Assembly: GCF_030656345.1 (NCBI RefSeq)
Contig: NZ_JAUSNR010000015.1
Coordinates: forward strand, 124,001-188,000
DNA from: Pseudotabrizicola sp.
GTDB taxonomy: Bacteria; Pseudomonadota; Alphaproteobacteria; Rhodobacterales; Rhodobacteraceae
Direction: 5' to 3'
DNA length: 64,000 bases
Shown in pieces: positions 39,802 through 45,881 of this stretch. A program made the translations under genes and the position numbers. Positions within the stretch are counted from its first letter, which is position 1, and each line of letters begins with the position of its first letter. The notes under the pieces were generated by a model. The model was given only the letters and a program-made list of their open reading frames with translations, had not been told where the DNA came from and ran no database searches.

Positions 39802-41370
39802 TCACTCCAGCTCGATGGTGCCCGGCGGCTTGCTGGTGCAGTCGTAGAACACCCGGTTGATGCCCGGCACCTCGTTGATGATCCGGGTCGAGGTTTCGCC
39901 CAGAAAATCATGGGTGAACGGGTAGTAATCGGCGGTCATGCCATCAACGCTTGTCACCGCACGCAGGGCGAGGGCGAAATCATAGGTGCGCCCGTCGCCC
40001 ATCACGCCCACCGTGCGCATCGGCAGGATGGCGGCAAAAGCCTGCCAGATCTCATCATACAGCCCATGCTTGCGGATCTGGTCGATATAGACCGCATCGG
40101 CCTTGCGCAGGATGTCGAGCTTTTCCACCGTGATCTCACCCGGGCAGCGGATGGCGAGACCGGGGCCGGGGAAGGGGTGGCGGCCGATGAAGCTGGCGGG
40201 CAGGCCAAGCTCGCGGCCAAGCGCGCGCACCTCATCCTTGAACAGCTCGCGCAGCGGTTCGACCAGTTTCAGCCCCATCTTTTCCGGCAGCCCGCCGACA
40301 TTGTGGTGCGATTTGATGGTGACCGACGGACCGCCCGAGAAGCTGACCGATTCGATCACATCGGGGTAGAGCGTGCCTTGCGCCAGAAACTTTGCGCCGC
40401 CTACATCGGTGGCGTGTTTCTGGAACACGTCGATGAACAGCCGGCCAATGGTCTTGCGCTTGATTTCGGGGTCGGAGACCCCTTCGAGCGCGCCGAGGAA
40501 CAGCTCGGATTCGTCAGCATGGATCAGCGGCATGTTGTAATGGTCGCGGAACATGGTAACGACCTGTTCCGCCTCACCCAGCCGCAGCAACCCGTGATCG
40601 ACGAACACGCAGGTGAGCTGGTCGCCGATGGCTTCATGGATCAGCACGGCGGCGACCGAGGAATCGACGCCGCCCGACAACCCGCAGATCACCTTGGCAT
40701 CGCCGACCTGGTCGCGGATCTTGCGGATCGCTTCCTCACGGTAGGCGCCCATGGTCCAGTCGCCCTTGAAGCCGGCCAGCTTCACGAAATTCTCGTACAG
40801 CTTCGCGCCCTTGGGGGTGTGGTGCACCTCGGGGTGGAACTGCACGGCGTAGAAATGCCGCGACGGATCGGCGGTGATGGCAAAGGGCGCATTGGGCGAG
40901 GTGCCGAACACCTCAAACCCCGGGGCGATTTTCGACACATGGTCGCCGTGCGACATCCAGACCTGTTCGCGCCCGCCGGTGGTGTTGGGATCAAACCAAC
41001 CGTCGAGCAGCGCCAGACCCGCACCGCTTGGCGTGACGTAAGCGCGACCAAATTCAGCGGTGCCATGGCCGCGTTCGACCAGACCGCCGAGGCAATGCAT
41101 CATCACCTGCTGGCCATAGCAGATGCCCAGCACCGGCACGCCAGAGGTGAACACCGTTTGCGGCGGCATCGGCGCGCCCGGCGCGAACACCGAGGACGGG
41201 CCACCCGACAGGATCACGGCCTTTGGCGCGAAATTGGCCAGAAAGGCATCGTCAACCTTGTTGAACGGATGAATCTCGCAATAGACATTCAACTCGCGCA
41301 GGCGGCGCGCGATCAGCTGCGTTACCTGAGAGCCGAAGTCGATGATCAGAAGGCGGTCATGTTGGGTCAT
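39802..41370 (-). CDS. guaA: GMP synthase (glutamine-hydrolysing) GuaA
   Basis: 522 aa from the ATG at 41370. The open frame continues 98 codons upstream without homologous content. The class I amidotransferase domain has LGICYGQQ (nucleophile Cys) and QFHPEVHHT (His, Glu). The ATP-pyrophosphatase domain carries the P-loop [12 protein letters not shown]. The C-terminal dimerisation domain ends in the conserved KPPGTIELE. It makes GMP from XMP. guaB, the preceding enzyme, is at the far end of the window. Confidence 0.97.
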
Positions 41371-41425
41371 GCGCCCGCATACGATGACCAATGGCCGACA
41401 GGCAAGAGGGTGAGACGCAGGAAGA

Positions 41426-41446
41426 TGAGTATTTGGGTCAAGATGA
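41426..41446 (+). repeat. Half-copy of a dispersed extragenic repeat
   Basis: Matches one arm of the long palindrome at 62621-62641 at 18 of 21 positions (GAGTATTT, then TCAAGATGAA). It lies in the 200-bp gap between divergent guaA and the MttB-family gene. Nothing else was recognised in that gap. Confidence 0.6.
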
Positions 41447-41570
41447 AGGCGGATCGACGGGAGGGCAGGCCGGGGGCATGTCGTTTTTGGGCCACAAGCG
41501 ACGGAAACAGGGTTTGGGTCAGCCGGCTTTGGCGGCATAAGGGCGACAAGCAGGCTTTGGAGGGTCGGAT

Positions 41571-43118
41571 ATGAGCGATGTTGCGGTTGAAGGGCGCCGT
41601 TTGCGCGGCGGCGGCGGATCGGCCCGGCGGGCAGAGCGCACGGCGGTGTCTTTGGAGACCGCAAAGTTCATCCAGCGCAACATCCCGAATTTCGAGATCC
41701 TGAACGCCGAGGCGCTGGAGATCATCGAATGGAATGCCGATACGGTTCTGGAAGAGATCGGCGTCAATTTCGTGGAAAACCCCGATGCCCTGGCGTTGTG
41801 GAAGGCGGCTGGCGCAGATGTGCAGGGCGAACGGGTGCGCATTCCGCGCGGTCTGGCGCGCAAGCTGTGCGCGACGGCCCCGTCCAGTTTCACCCAGCAC
41901 GCCCGCAACCCGGCGCGCAACGTGGATATCGGTGGGCGCAATCTGGTGCTGGCCCCGGTCTATGGTCCGCCCTTCGTGCGCGACATCGAAGGCGGGCGGC
42001 GCTATGCCACCATCAATGATTTCCAGAACTTCGTGAAGCTGGGCTATATGTCGAAATGGCTGCACCATTCGGGCGGCACGGTGTGCGAACCCACCGATGT
42101 GCCGGTGAACAAGCGCCATCTGGATATGCTGCACGCGCATATGACCCTGTCGGACAAGCCCTATATGGGATCAGTCACCGAGCCCAGCCGGGCGGTCGAT
42201 TCGGTCGAGATGTCGAAGATCCTGTTCGGGTCGGATTTCGTCGACCAGAACACGGTGATGACCAGCCTCATCAACATCAACAGCCCGCTGACCTTTGACG
42301 GCATCATGATGGGCGCGCTGGAGGTGTTTGCAAAGGCGGGTCAGGCGTCGATCATCAGCCCGTTCATCGTGGGCGGGGCGATGGCGCCGGTCACGGTGGC
42401 GGGCACGCTGACGCAGGTTCTGGCCGAGGTTCTGGCCGGGGTGGCCTACAGTCAGCTGGTGCGCCCCGGTGCGCCGGTGATCTTTGGCGCCTTTGTGACC
42501 AGTATCGACATGAACTCCGGCGCGCCGACCTTTGGCACGCCTGAGGCCGCGCATATCACTTATGGCGCGGGCCAGCTGGCGCGGCGGCTGAACCTGCCCT
42601 ACCGTTCGGGCGGGAGCTTCTGCGGGTCAAAACTGCCCGATGCGCAGGCGGCCTATGAAACCGCGAACAGCCTGAACATGGCCCTGCTGGCGGGCGTCAA
42701 CTTCATGCTGCACGCCTGTGGCTGGCTCGAAGGCGGGCTGGTCAGCTCTTATGAGAAATTCGTCATGGACGCCGATCAGCTGGGCACGCTGCACCATCTG
42801 GCGCAGGGCGTGATGATGGACACCAACGGGCAGGCGATGGAGGCTTTGCGCGAAGTGGGGCCTGGCGGGCATTTTCTGGGCTGCGAACACACGCAGGCCA
42901 ATTTCAAATCGGCATTCTGGCGGTCGGATGTGTTTGACTACAAACCCTTCGAGACCTGGGCCGAAGAGGGGGCGCGCGACACACAGGCGCTTGCGGCGGA
43001 ACGGGTGAAAAAGCAGCTGTCGGATTACCAGCAGCCCGTGCTTGACCCCGGTATCCGTGAGGCGCTGGACGCCTATGTGGCACAGAAAAAGGCGTCCATG
43101 CCGGACGCCTTCATCTGA
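41571..43118 (+). CDS. Trimethylamine methyltransferase (MttB) superfamily protein, non-pyrrolysine
   Basis: 515 aa, a TIM-barrel corrinoid-dependent methyltransferase fold over most of its length ([64 protein letters not shown]). Archaeal and clostridial MttB reads through an in-frame amber codon for pyrrolysine. This frame has no amber codon, so it belongs to the larger non-Pyl group, in which a glycine betaine methyltransferase (MtgB) is known. No corrinoid protein gene is adjacent. The substrate is probably a quaternary amine, such as glycine betaine or a relative, but this is inference. Confidence 0.88.
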
Positions 43119-43163: not shown

Positions 43164-43442
43164 TCAGGTGCGGGGCAGCACCAGCCGGGATTCGGCCAGA
43201 AGCGCAATCAGCACCTCGATATGCCGGGTGAGCGAATAGCCGGCATCGCCGCGCTGCCGGGTTTCCTCCAGCCGGTCTTCCTGCGACAGCAACTGACACA
43301 CCGCCGCCTCATACGAGGCGGGCAGGTCCACCAGTCGTTTCAGGTCGCGGTCGCGCCGGTAATCTGACTGGCCGAACCTTGCCGCGCGCATCAACAGGGA
43401 TGGGCGGCGCAGGTCGGCAAGGCGGGTGCGGACATCAGTCAT
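43164..43442 (-). CDS. DUF6477-like small protein
   Basis: 92 aa, basic and helical, with the segments RPSLLMRAARFGQSDYRRDRDL and LPASYEAAVCQLLSQEDRLEE. The family is found in Rhodobacteraceae and has no assigned function. It is divergent from the GafA-like regulator and shares a 230-bp intergenic region with it, so the two may be co-regulated. Confidence 0.72.
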   Translation of the reverse strand: MTDVRTRLADLRRPSLLMRAARFGQSDYRRDRDLKRLVDLPASYEAAVCQLLSQEDRLEETRQRGDAGYSLTRHIEVLIALLAESRLVLPRT

Positions 43443-43502
43443 GGGCAGGCTCCTTCTTGCTTCCGGGACAGCCTAATTCACACAACTTAGCGTTGCATTT
43501 TA

Positions 43503-43511
43503 TGTGGATAA
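43503..43511 (-). promoter_or_regulatory. DnaA box (perfect consensus)
   Basis: The minus strand reads TTATCCACA. A second, one-mismatch box (ATATCCACA, plus strand) is at 43552-43560. Both lie in the divergent region upstream of the GafA-like gene. A pair this close in an AT-richer stretch is more than expected by chance in such GC-rich DNA. Confidence 0.5.
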
Positions 43512-43585
43512 CCGCGCGGTCGGTTTGAAATCACTTCACTTTATTCATCAAATATCCACAGGTCCGCCGAAATCCACCCGTTCCA

Positions 43586-43601
43586 TTAACCAATGCGTAA
43601 C
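43586..43601 (+). promoter_or_regulatory. CtrA-like binding site
   Basis: TTAA, seven bases, GTAAC: one mismatch from the CtrA consensus TTAA-N7-TTAAC. A further TTAACC half-site is at 43621-43626. Both are within 85 bp of the chosen start of the GafA-like gene. Confidence 0.5.
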
Positions 43602-43668
43602 CCGTTCCGTTCAGGTTGAATTAACCATGAAATGGCCAGGAAACCGCACGGCGGCATCGGAAACGAAG

Positions 43669-44787
43669 ATGACATCGAACCTGTCCGCTGACTTTACCCT
43701 GCCCGCATGGCTGCCCAATGACGTCCGGCTGTATCTCGACCATACCGGGGTCGGCGTGCCGTTCCGCGAACTGGCCCGTCGTCAGGGGGCGCATGCCTCT
43801 ACGGTGATGCGCCAGATCCGGCGCTGCGAAGCCCGCCGTGAGGATCCGCTGGTGGACGAAGCCCTTGCCCTTCTGGGCGACAGGTCGATGGCCCCAGACA
43901 ATGAGGAGGATCCTGCCATGACCGCGTCTGTTGCCCCCCGATCGCTGAACCTCGACGAAGCCACCCTGTCCCGCGAGGGCCGCCGCATTCTGCGCCGGAT
44001 GGCAGAACCGGGGGCGGTTCTGGCCATCGCCCCCGACCTGAACAAAGCCGTCGTGCTGCGCGAATTTCCCGACGGGCAGCAGGCCCGCACCGGGGTGGTC
44101 GACCGCGCCATCGCACAGGCCTTTGCGCTGAAAGACTGGATCGCCTGCCGCAAGAAGGGCCGGGTCACCACCTATGAGATCACAACGGCAGGCCGGGCCG
44201 CCCTCAAGCGGATGATCGACGAGAGCGATCTGGCCCGGCAGGCCCAGCACAGCGGCATGGCCGAGGCCGCCATGCCCTTTGCCGCCCAGCACCGGATCTG
44301 GGATGACCGCCAGATCGAAGAGGGCGGGGCGTCACGCCGCATCCGCTATAACCTTGCCGAAAGCCCGCTGGCGGCCCTGGGGCGGCGGCGCGACAAGGAT
44401 GGCCGGCCGTTTCTGGAAAACGATCTGATCCGCGCCGCTGAACGGCTGCGCGAAGATTTCGAGCTGGCGCAGATGGGTCCGCGCGTGGCGCAGAACTGGG
44501 AGCGTTTCCTGACCCCCGGCGACCGCGGCGGCTTCCGCCCCGATGCTGGGCATGGCGAAGGCCCGACCCGCGCCCGCGACCGGGTGGCGGCAGCATTGCG
44601 CGATCTTGGCCCCGGTCTGGGCGATGTGGCGCTGCGGGTGTGCTGCTTTCTCGAAGGCATCGAGACGGCGGAAAAGCGGATGGGCTGGGCCGCCCGGTCC
44701 GGCAAGATCGTGCTGCGGATCGCGTTGCAACGCCTGCGCCGGCATTATGAGGAAGACACCTGCGCGCAGAGCCAATACATCGGCTGA
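43669..44787 (+). CDS. Helix-turn-helix, DUF6456-like regulator; candidate gene-transfer-agent activator GafA
   Basis: 372 aa from the ATG at 43669 (an ATG at 43627 is also possible). An N-terminal HTH spans about 15-60 ([29 protein letters not shown]). A winged-helix-like middle follows ([36 protein letters not shown]). The C-terminal helical domain (about 235-365) ends in a sigma-region-4-like segment with [17 protein letters not shown]. Length, layout and the CtrA-like site upstream fit GafA, the direct activator of the Rhodobacter gene transfer agent. I recall the family from memory and could not align it, so a different DUF6456 regulator remains possible. Confidence 0.6.
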
Positions 44788-44832: not shown

Positions 44833-44930
44833 TGCCATGCGCTGCGCGCAACCCCTTGTGCCCGCAGCGCCGGTTGTGTGCGGGGCGGGATCGGGCTAGA
44901 CAGGTGTCAGCATGCATTGTGGAGGCCCCC

Positions 44931-45881
44931 TTGCGCGATCTGACCATTCCCGACCAGCGGCACCCGGAAAAGGCGCATCGTGCCGACAATGCGCAGCCCA
45001 AAAAGCCTGACTGGATCCGCGTGCGCGCCCCCACCTCTGAGGGTTACAAGCGCACCCGCGACATCCTCAAGGAAAAGAAGCTGGTCACCGTCTGCGAAGA
45101 GGCGGGCTGCCCCAACGTGGGCGAATGCTGGTCACAGGGCCACGCCACCATGATGATCATGGGCGAGATCTGCACCCGTGGCTGCACCTTCTGCAACGTC
45201 GCCACCGGCAAGCCGCAAACGCTTGATGCGTTTGAACCCGGCCGGGTGGCCCATGCGGTGGCCGAACTGGGGCTGAACCATGTGGTGATCACCAGCGTGG
45301 ACCGCGACGATCTGGATGACGGCGGGGCCGAGCATTTTGCTCAGACCATCCGCGCCATCCGCCACCGTGCACCCGGCACCACGATTGAAATCCTGACCCC
45401 GGATTTCCTGAAATGCGCCCCTTCGGCGTTGGAGCGTGTGGTCGAAGCGCGGCCCGATGTGTTCAACCACAATCTGGAAACCGTGCCCGGCCTGTATCTG
45501 GAGGTGCGCCCCGGCGCGCGCTATTTCCACTCGCTGCGCCTGCTGCAAAGGGTCAAGGAGCTGGACCCGACGCTGTTCACCAAATCCGGCATCATGGTCG
45601 GTCTGGGCGAAGACCGCGCCGGTGTGCTGCAGGTGATGGATGACATGCGCAGCGCCGATATCGATTTTCTGACCATCGGCCAATACCTGCAGCCCACCCC
45701 GAAACACCACCGGGTAGACCGCTTCGTCACCCCCGATGAGTTCAAAAGCTATGAGACCGCGGCCTATGGCAAAGGCTTTCTGATGGTCTCTGCCACCCCG
45801 CTCACCCGCTCTTCCTATCACGCGGGCGACGATTTCGCGCAACTGCGCGCTGCGCGTCTGACAAAACTCGGCCGGGGCTGA
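44931..45881 (+). CDS. lipA: Lipoyl synthase LipA
   Basis: 316 aa from the TTG at 44931, chosen because GGAGG lies five bases upstream and the sequence before it is unrelated to LipA. The auxiliary cluster motif is [12 protein letters not shown] and the radical SAM motif is CTRGCTFC. The C-terminal RSSYHA that ligates the auxiliary cluster Ser is intact ([12 protein letters not shown]). It inserts two sulfurs into octanoyl groups on E2 and H proteins. It ends convergent with the RatA-like gene. Confidence 0.96.

Follow-up and report, generated by a model that had tools for sequence, protein, structure and literature searches.

Does the gene at 43669-44787 of the stretch analysed here (the window, 64,000 nucleotides of a Pseudotabrizicola contig) encode an activator of gene transfer agents (GTAs), and if it does, to what signals might its promoter answer? 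From the letters of the window, an initial annotation proposed that the 372-aa product is GafA, with an N-terminal helix-turn-helix, a winged middle and an end resembling sigma region 4, and that its promoter carries DnaA boxes and a CtrA-like site, a combination that would link the initiation of replication and CtrA to gene transfer. The identity of the gene comes first, and these features bear on it:

39802..41664, minus strand: open frame of guaA (GMP synthase), a synteny marker (PF00958/PF00117)
43164..43442, minus strand: rcc01866-like divergent gene, 92 aa, DUF6477 (PF20083, E 3.6e-32)
43669..44787, plus strand: gafA, encoding the 372-aa GafA orthologue (PF20057 DUF6456 and genus comparison)
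43681..43890, plus strand: GafA residues 5-74, DnaA-domain-IV-like helix-turn-helix
43951..44268, plus strand: GafA residues 95-200, winged-helix middle domain
44344..44754, plus strand: DUF6456 match, overlapping the sigma-region-4-like end (residues 295-366)
44856..45881, plus strand: open frame of lipA (lipoyl synthase), a synteny marker (PF04055/PF16881)

The match of the product to DUF6456 (PF20057) is significant by a wide margin (profile search, E 2.2e-62, 209.5 bits against a cut-off of 26.3), and the protein is 67-94% identical to its counterparts in 14 relatives within the genus. The three-part layout that had been proposed is borne out by an AlphaFold2 model, in which VIA-align matches of moderate Z place a DnaA-like helix-turn-helix, a middle domain and a sigma-4-like C-terminus in one full-length fusion. 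A plain Foldseek search with the model gave nothing significant, and a search of phages gave a single partial match, to MW462191, covering 51% of the query at 36% identity. The gene order guaA / rcc01866-like / gafA / lipA is the published synteny, with an MttB-like gene sitting between guaA and the rcc01866-like gene, and a homologue of the latter stands upstream of gafA in 125 of 130 loci from other genera and in 89 of the 90 loci of a hold-out set. Taken together with the CtrA site and the GTA cluster on the same contig (both described below), the profile match and synteny establish that 43669-44787 encodes GafA, an orthologue of the direct activator of RcGTA-type gene transfer agents. As a GafA, the product would be expected to activate the GTA promoter through RNA polymerase omega. 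GafA, the control of gafA by CtrA and the binding of GtaR have already been published, and the gene in the window is a further orthologue.

The structural genes that GafA would act upon lie outside the window, in an RcGTA-type cluster on gafA's own contig (C23, of which the window spans 124001-188000), about 211 kb from gafA to g1. The profile match that marks the cluster is:

contig C23, 366252-367133: PF13547 GTA_TIM, E 2e-139

Open frames across C23:360001-380000 have Pfam matches to terminase, portal, prohead protease, capsid, tail tube, DUF2460, a hub protein and a 1300-aa GTA_TIM protein, in an order that we take to be that of RcGTA; a 111-aa frame in the place of g1 and a 175-aa frame in the place of the penultimate gene match nothing in Pfam, and their naming goes by position alone. 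The assembly has an estimated contamination of 7.83%, and gafA and the cluster nevertheless share one contig. On the strength of this homology, and by analogy with R. capsulatus, GafA would switch on the cluster with which it shares a contig. The family sample comprises 149 genomes, of which 129 have a GTA_TIM match and 137 a DUF6456 match.

The 226-bp stretch between gafA and its divergent neighbour holds the following elements:

43483..43495, no strand assigned: CAAC-N5-GTTG dyad near the rcc01866-like gene
43503..43511, minus strand: putative DnaA box 1, a perfect TTATCCACA, with a box in the same place in 8/15 genus loci
43552..43560, plus strand: putative DnaA box 2, ATATCCACA, one mismatch, 34 bp before the CtrA site
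43586..43601, plus strand: CtrA site TTAAC-CAATGC-GTAAC (TTAAC-N6-GTAAC), from the sequence and the published R. capsulatus pattern
43613..43618, plus strand: AGGTTG, possible -10-like element by its position, +27 from the start of the CtrA site

What had been described as a CtrA-like TTAA-N7-GTAAC proves to be of the type published for gafA of R. capsulatus, TTAAC-N6-GTAAC, whose usual distance to the start is 65-71 bp (PMC6363796; here and below, papers are cited for part of their text). The site in the window is 67 bp from the ATG at 43669, though that start was itself chosen by its distance to the site; an alternative ATG upstream, at 43627, is not conserved across the promoter sequences of the genus. 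In other genera, 110 of 130 gafA promoters have a CtrA site with at most two mismatches, 50 of these perfect. By analogy with R. capsulatus, where binding is published, the promoter is one read by CtrA. It has no GANTC (CcrM) sites.

Alignment on the CtrA site brings out further elements in these 110 promoters. The sequence AGGTTGTG stands exactly at +28 from the start of the site in 24 of them and may, from its placement, be a -10-like element. It faces both divergent genes (24/110 each way), and GGTGTTGC occurs 49 times between -84 and -88; this conserved pair, GGTGTTGC and the divergently facing AGGTTGTG, perhaps comprises core promoter parts of the rcc01866-like gene. GTTTATC is found near -40 in 24/110 promoters and GGAAACAA near -29, with 18 occurrences in the 110. 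The C-terminus of R. capsulatus GafA may bind a fragment that contains the -35 element (PMC9638019), and the conserved region from -28 to -42 is a candidate for such an autoregulatory site. The place of this region is taken, in the window's genus, by DnaA box 2.

Both DnaA boxes named in the initial annotation, the perfect one and the one with a mismatch, are present, and the perfect form is well conserved among close relatives. TTATCCACA has only 16 sites in the whole 4.7-Mb genome, yet a perfect copy lies in the gafA intergenic stretch of 13 of 15 genus members (a group that also includes records titled Cypionkella, Gemmobacter, Tabrizicola, Rhodobacter and others), against 0.05 on average, and never more than 1, when the same 15 stretches are shuffled. 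A perfect minus-strand box lies between -154 and -176 from the ATG, which puts it 70-92 bp ahead of the first base of the CtrA site, in 8/15 loci including the window's own, and a perfect plus-strand box precedes the CtrA site by 21 or 33 bp in 7/15. In P. algicola (L168) both of the boxes are perfect. In this genus, then, both boxes are upstream of the CtrA site, and they converge.

As for sites elsewhere in the genome, one (G000:C3 115263-115271, locus L149) lies roughly 20 bp outside the upstream boundary of a frame for a CcrM-like adenine methyltransferase and about 40 bp before its first ATG. The CcrM-like match scores 627 bits, under the model's cut-off of 830; CcrM is another cell-cycle gene. 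Further TTATCCACA sites adjoin uvrC (L164) and a secretin-like gene (L155).

The boxes extend beyond the genus. Sampling one genome per genus in the family gave 135 with DUF6456, and 130 of these were used. Left out were G037, G042, G073, G102 and G132, mostly for fragmentary or weak matches (in G042 and G132 the match is split in two pieces, possibly a decayed or frameshifted gafA). Starts were extrapolated from tblastn, and a few are off; one locus at a contig end (L082, 644 bases) offers little or no promoter, and where no rcc01866-like gene was detected (L046, L082, L125, L132, L139), up to 300 bp were taken instead. A perfect TTATCCACA is present in 23/130 promoters (shuffle mean 0.23, maximum 1), making it the 7th commonest of 24,224 9-mers. 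The 1,680 permutation words of TTATCCACA, itself included, average 0.21, with 7 for the runner-up. With one mismatch allowed, a box is found in 61/130 promoters (shuffle mean 6.5, maximum 12) and is lacking in the other 69. Genome-wide the word is rare: in 16 genomes of our choosing it occurs 4-25 times per genome, 235 times in total against 229 for the reversed word, and a single site turns up in the 171 kb that follow these gafA starts. Even on the assumption that the sites of the window's own genome are all intergenic and that intergenic DNA is a tenth of the genome, 130 promoters should hold about one box between them. Among ten genomes with gafA in which no GTA_TIM was found, at least three (loci L038, L061 and L120) have kept gafA with a box within one mismatch, a point against the DnaA reading proposed below.

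In the 110 promoters with a CtrA match (the other 20 were left out of these counts), the boxes are mostly downstream of the CtrA site and show a definite geometry. A minus-strand box within one mismatch is found there in 43/110, against 5 on the plus strand, none for either reversed word, and a mean of 1.5 (maximum 6) in 200 shuffles. Of 56 downstream boxes, 46 start at 31-34, 43-46 or 55-59 from the start of the CtrA site, and 29/44 box pairs (up to two mismatches) are 11-13 bp apart. Such 9-mers, on one strand with 2-4 bp between them, are by sequence a head-to-tail array of putative DnaA boxes, and in the other genera the array begins at AGGTTGTG (+28).

A prediction that 39% of new genera would have a downstream box was set down before they were looked at. 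The hold-out genera were picked by best DUF6456 E-value, hence not a random sample, and gave 90 usable loci of 92 fetched (one more match, G352, was passed over because its contig ends too early), 83 with a CtrA anchor. The prediction missed: 18/83 have a downstream minus-strand box (12 perfect), a rate of 22%, about half that predicted, though still far from the plus strand (3) and from shuffles (mean 1.0, maximum 4). The geometry repeated, with 24/27 boxes at 31-34, 43-46 or 55-59 and 18/24 pairs at 11-12 bp. Over whole hold-out promoters, 15/90 have a perfect box and 29/90 one within one mismatch, and TTATCCACA ranks 12th of 17,665 9-mers. On a tree of GafA (139 of 145 proteins), the downstream box requires 24 changes, compared with 34.6 when labels are shuffled, and at least seven are forced by well-supported branches. 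The box has been gained or lost repeatedly, a mixture of clustering and turnover, and since the label is clustered on the tree, counts from related genera are not independent of one another. The feature, though real and widespread, is far from universal.

Might the boxes be chance matches in an AT-rich intergenic stretch? The more general pattern TTWTNCACA is not over-represented in the window as a whole, but dinucleotide shuffles, permuted and reversed words, the opposite strand, genome-wide rates and the hold-out set all contradict chance, which can be ruled out for practical purposes. A more serious question is which protein reads the boxes. The N-terminal fold of GafA matches DnaA domain IV, and GafA of R. 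capsulatus is published to bind and activate its own promoter, so the boxes might be GafA's own operators, serving autoregulation. At the box-reading helix, however, the DnaA of the same genome has GGRDHTTIMHGVRK, which includes the standard motif RDHTT, while GafA has AHAST in the corresponding place. We take the RDHTT residues to be those that read the box. Some box-reading residues of DnaA are named in PMC9638019, according to which the N-terminus of R. capsulatus GafA binds the gafA promoter only non-specifically and is dispensable for autoregulation. Moreover, no boxes were found in the GTA g1 promoters, where GafA acts, of 30 genomes (30 of the 67 matching genomes were used, with extrapolated starts), nor in the 20-kb GTA region of the window's own genome. 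With GafA lacking RDHTT, g1 promoters lacking the box and the N-terminus non-specific, DnaA is the likely reader, and we give GafA's own operators little chance. Besides DnaA, another protein of the genome (L194, G000:C30:230070-230285) has a C-terminal domain like that of DnaA, with the motif GGRDETTVRHGI and a match to TIGR00362 below the cut-off (E 4e-13); it is a possible further reader.

If DnaA reads the boxes, what would it do there? The boxes are at the promoter, rare elsewhere, and conserved in position, orientation and spacing, and the standard motif is in DnaA and not in GafA. From this we infer DnaA binding, repression as its sign and a physiological sense: quite probably, in our estimation, DnaA binds the gafA promoter and represses gafA during initiation, so that GTA production is gated by the state of replication as well as by CtrA. 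For a large minority of the genera surveyed in the Rhodobacteraceae, we picture DnaA assembling on the head-to-tail array of 9-mers (11-13 bp spacing) that starts just downstream of the CtrA site, at the -10-like element; in the window's genus it would sit on the two convergent boxes that lie a short way upstream of the site. The promoter bound in this way would most likely be repressed while replication initiates, and GTA production and lysis would begin only when active DnaA is low (in stationary, non-initiating cells) and CtrA is present. If AGGTTGTG is indeed a -10-like element, then the array covers the promoter and the early transcribed region. If instead transcription begins at the CtrA site, where Fogg infers the start to be in R. 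capsulatus (naming as binders CtrA, GtaR and GafA, not DnaA, in the part of the account cited), then the array is in the leader. Repression would be the simplest reading in genera with a downstream array wherever the start site lies. The sign of the effect is less certain in the window's genus, whose boxes precede the CtrA site, and a single mechanism may fail to cover every case. The link to replication initiation and CtrA, offered as conditional by the initial annotation, has thus gained sequence evidence from well beyond the genus, yet it is patchy: in the genus of G081, a box within one mismatch is found in only 2 of 14 genomes.

The upstream boxes of the window's genus are where an activator could sit, and DnaA is able to activate or repress (PMC8203912). 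Box 1, besides, is only about 60 bp from the rcc01866-like gene, so perhaps DnaA activates gafA, or perhaps the boxes mainly serve the divergent gene. In the other genera, however, 26 of the 32 CtrA-anchored boxes of the two strongest types are on the gafA side and share a strand, lying over the -10-like element or a little past it, and occlusion fits these better; activation or service to the neighbour is a less likely reading. The Caulobacter origin, too, has DnaA boxes together with a CtrA site, and the resemblance raises the thought that the gafA boxes titrate DnaA or form an origin-like element, with no regulatory role for gafA. The gene is near the terminus in Rhodobacterales (PMC8116508). 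But the few boxes in each promoter could titrate little DnaA, and where they stand with respect to the CtrA site, and on which strand, suggests the architecture of a promoter; we consider this reading very improbable.

Repression of gafA by DnaA, the reading we retain, would make gene transfer depend directly on how replication stands in the cell. Generalized, it would place the GTA decision of a large part of the Rhodobacteraceae at one promoter, where a DnaA filament on a phased array shuts gafA during initiation and CtrA opens it afterwards. This broader proposal is tentative, and we hold it possible rather than probable. A decision promoter of this kind would, if true, help explain why GTA production is confined to cells in stationary phase and perhaps also why the producers are only a small fraction of the cells. 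A direct input from DnaA would tie horizontal gene transfer and the lysis of the host to replication initiation, and it is a concrete candidate, testable by a few base changes.

In most respects, the locus resembles that of R. capsulatus, whose GafA (rcc01865) likewise has DUF6456, the three-domain layout, an rcc01866-like divergent neighbour and guaA/lipA synteny, with TTAAC-N6-GTAAC 65-71 bp from the start and an RcGTA-type cluster in the genome. It differs from the R. capsulatus accounts in its DnaA boxes, which go unmentioned in the cited parts of the GafA papers PMC6363796 and PMC9638019. These boxes are the new part of the finding. No report of DnaA boxes at a gafA promoter was found in the main-text portion of the open-access literature searched. 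The gafA promoters of 14 species have been aligned in print, and PMC2877005 gives genome-wide predictions of DnaA sites across alphaproteobacteria, possibly with an unremarked prediction at gafA among them. In Caulobacter crescentus, GafY and GafZ have the same role, GafY being the half that resembles DnaA domain IV. The resemblance of both GafA and GafY to the DNA-binding domain of DnaA is already published, and GafY was earlier named HdaB for its effect on replication (PMC9632790). Unlike GafA of the window, GafY and GafZ are two genes, with a promoter bound by RogA and IHF; control through DnaA boxes is not described in the parts cited of PMC9632790 and PMC11150451. CtrA sites are often co-located with DnaA sites in Caulobacter (PMC9437464). 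Like promoters regulated by DnaA (those of E. coli dnaA and nrdAB, and of Caulobacter cell-cycle genes; PMC8203912), gafA promoters have TTATCCACA boxes, several to a promoter. What sets them apart from these known cases is that the target is the activator of a gene transfer agent and that the boxes stand at preferred offsets from the CtrA site.
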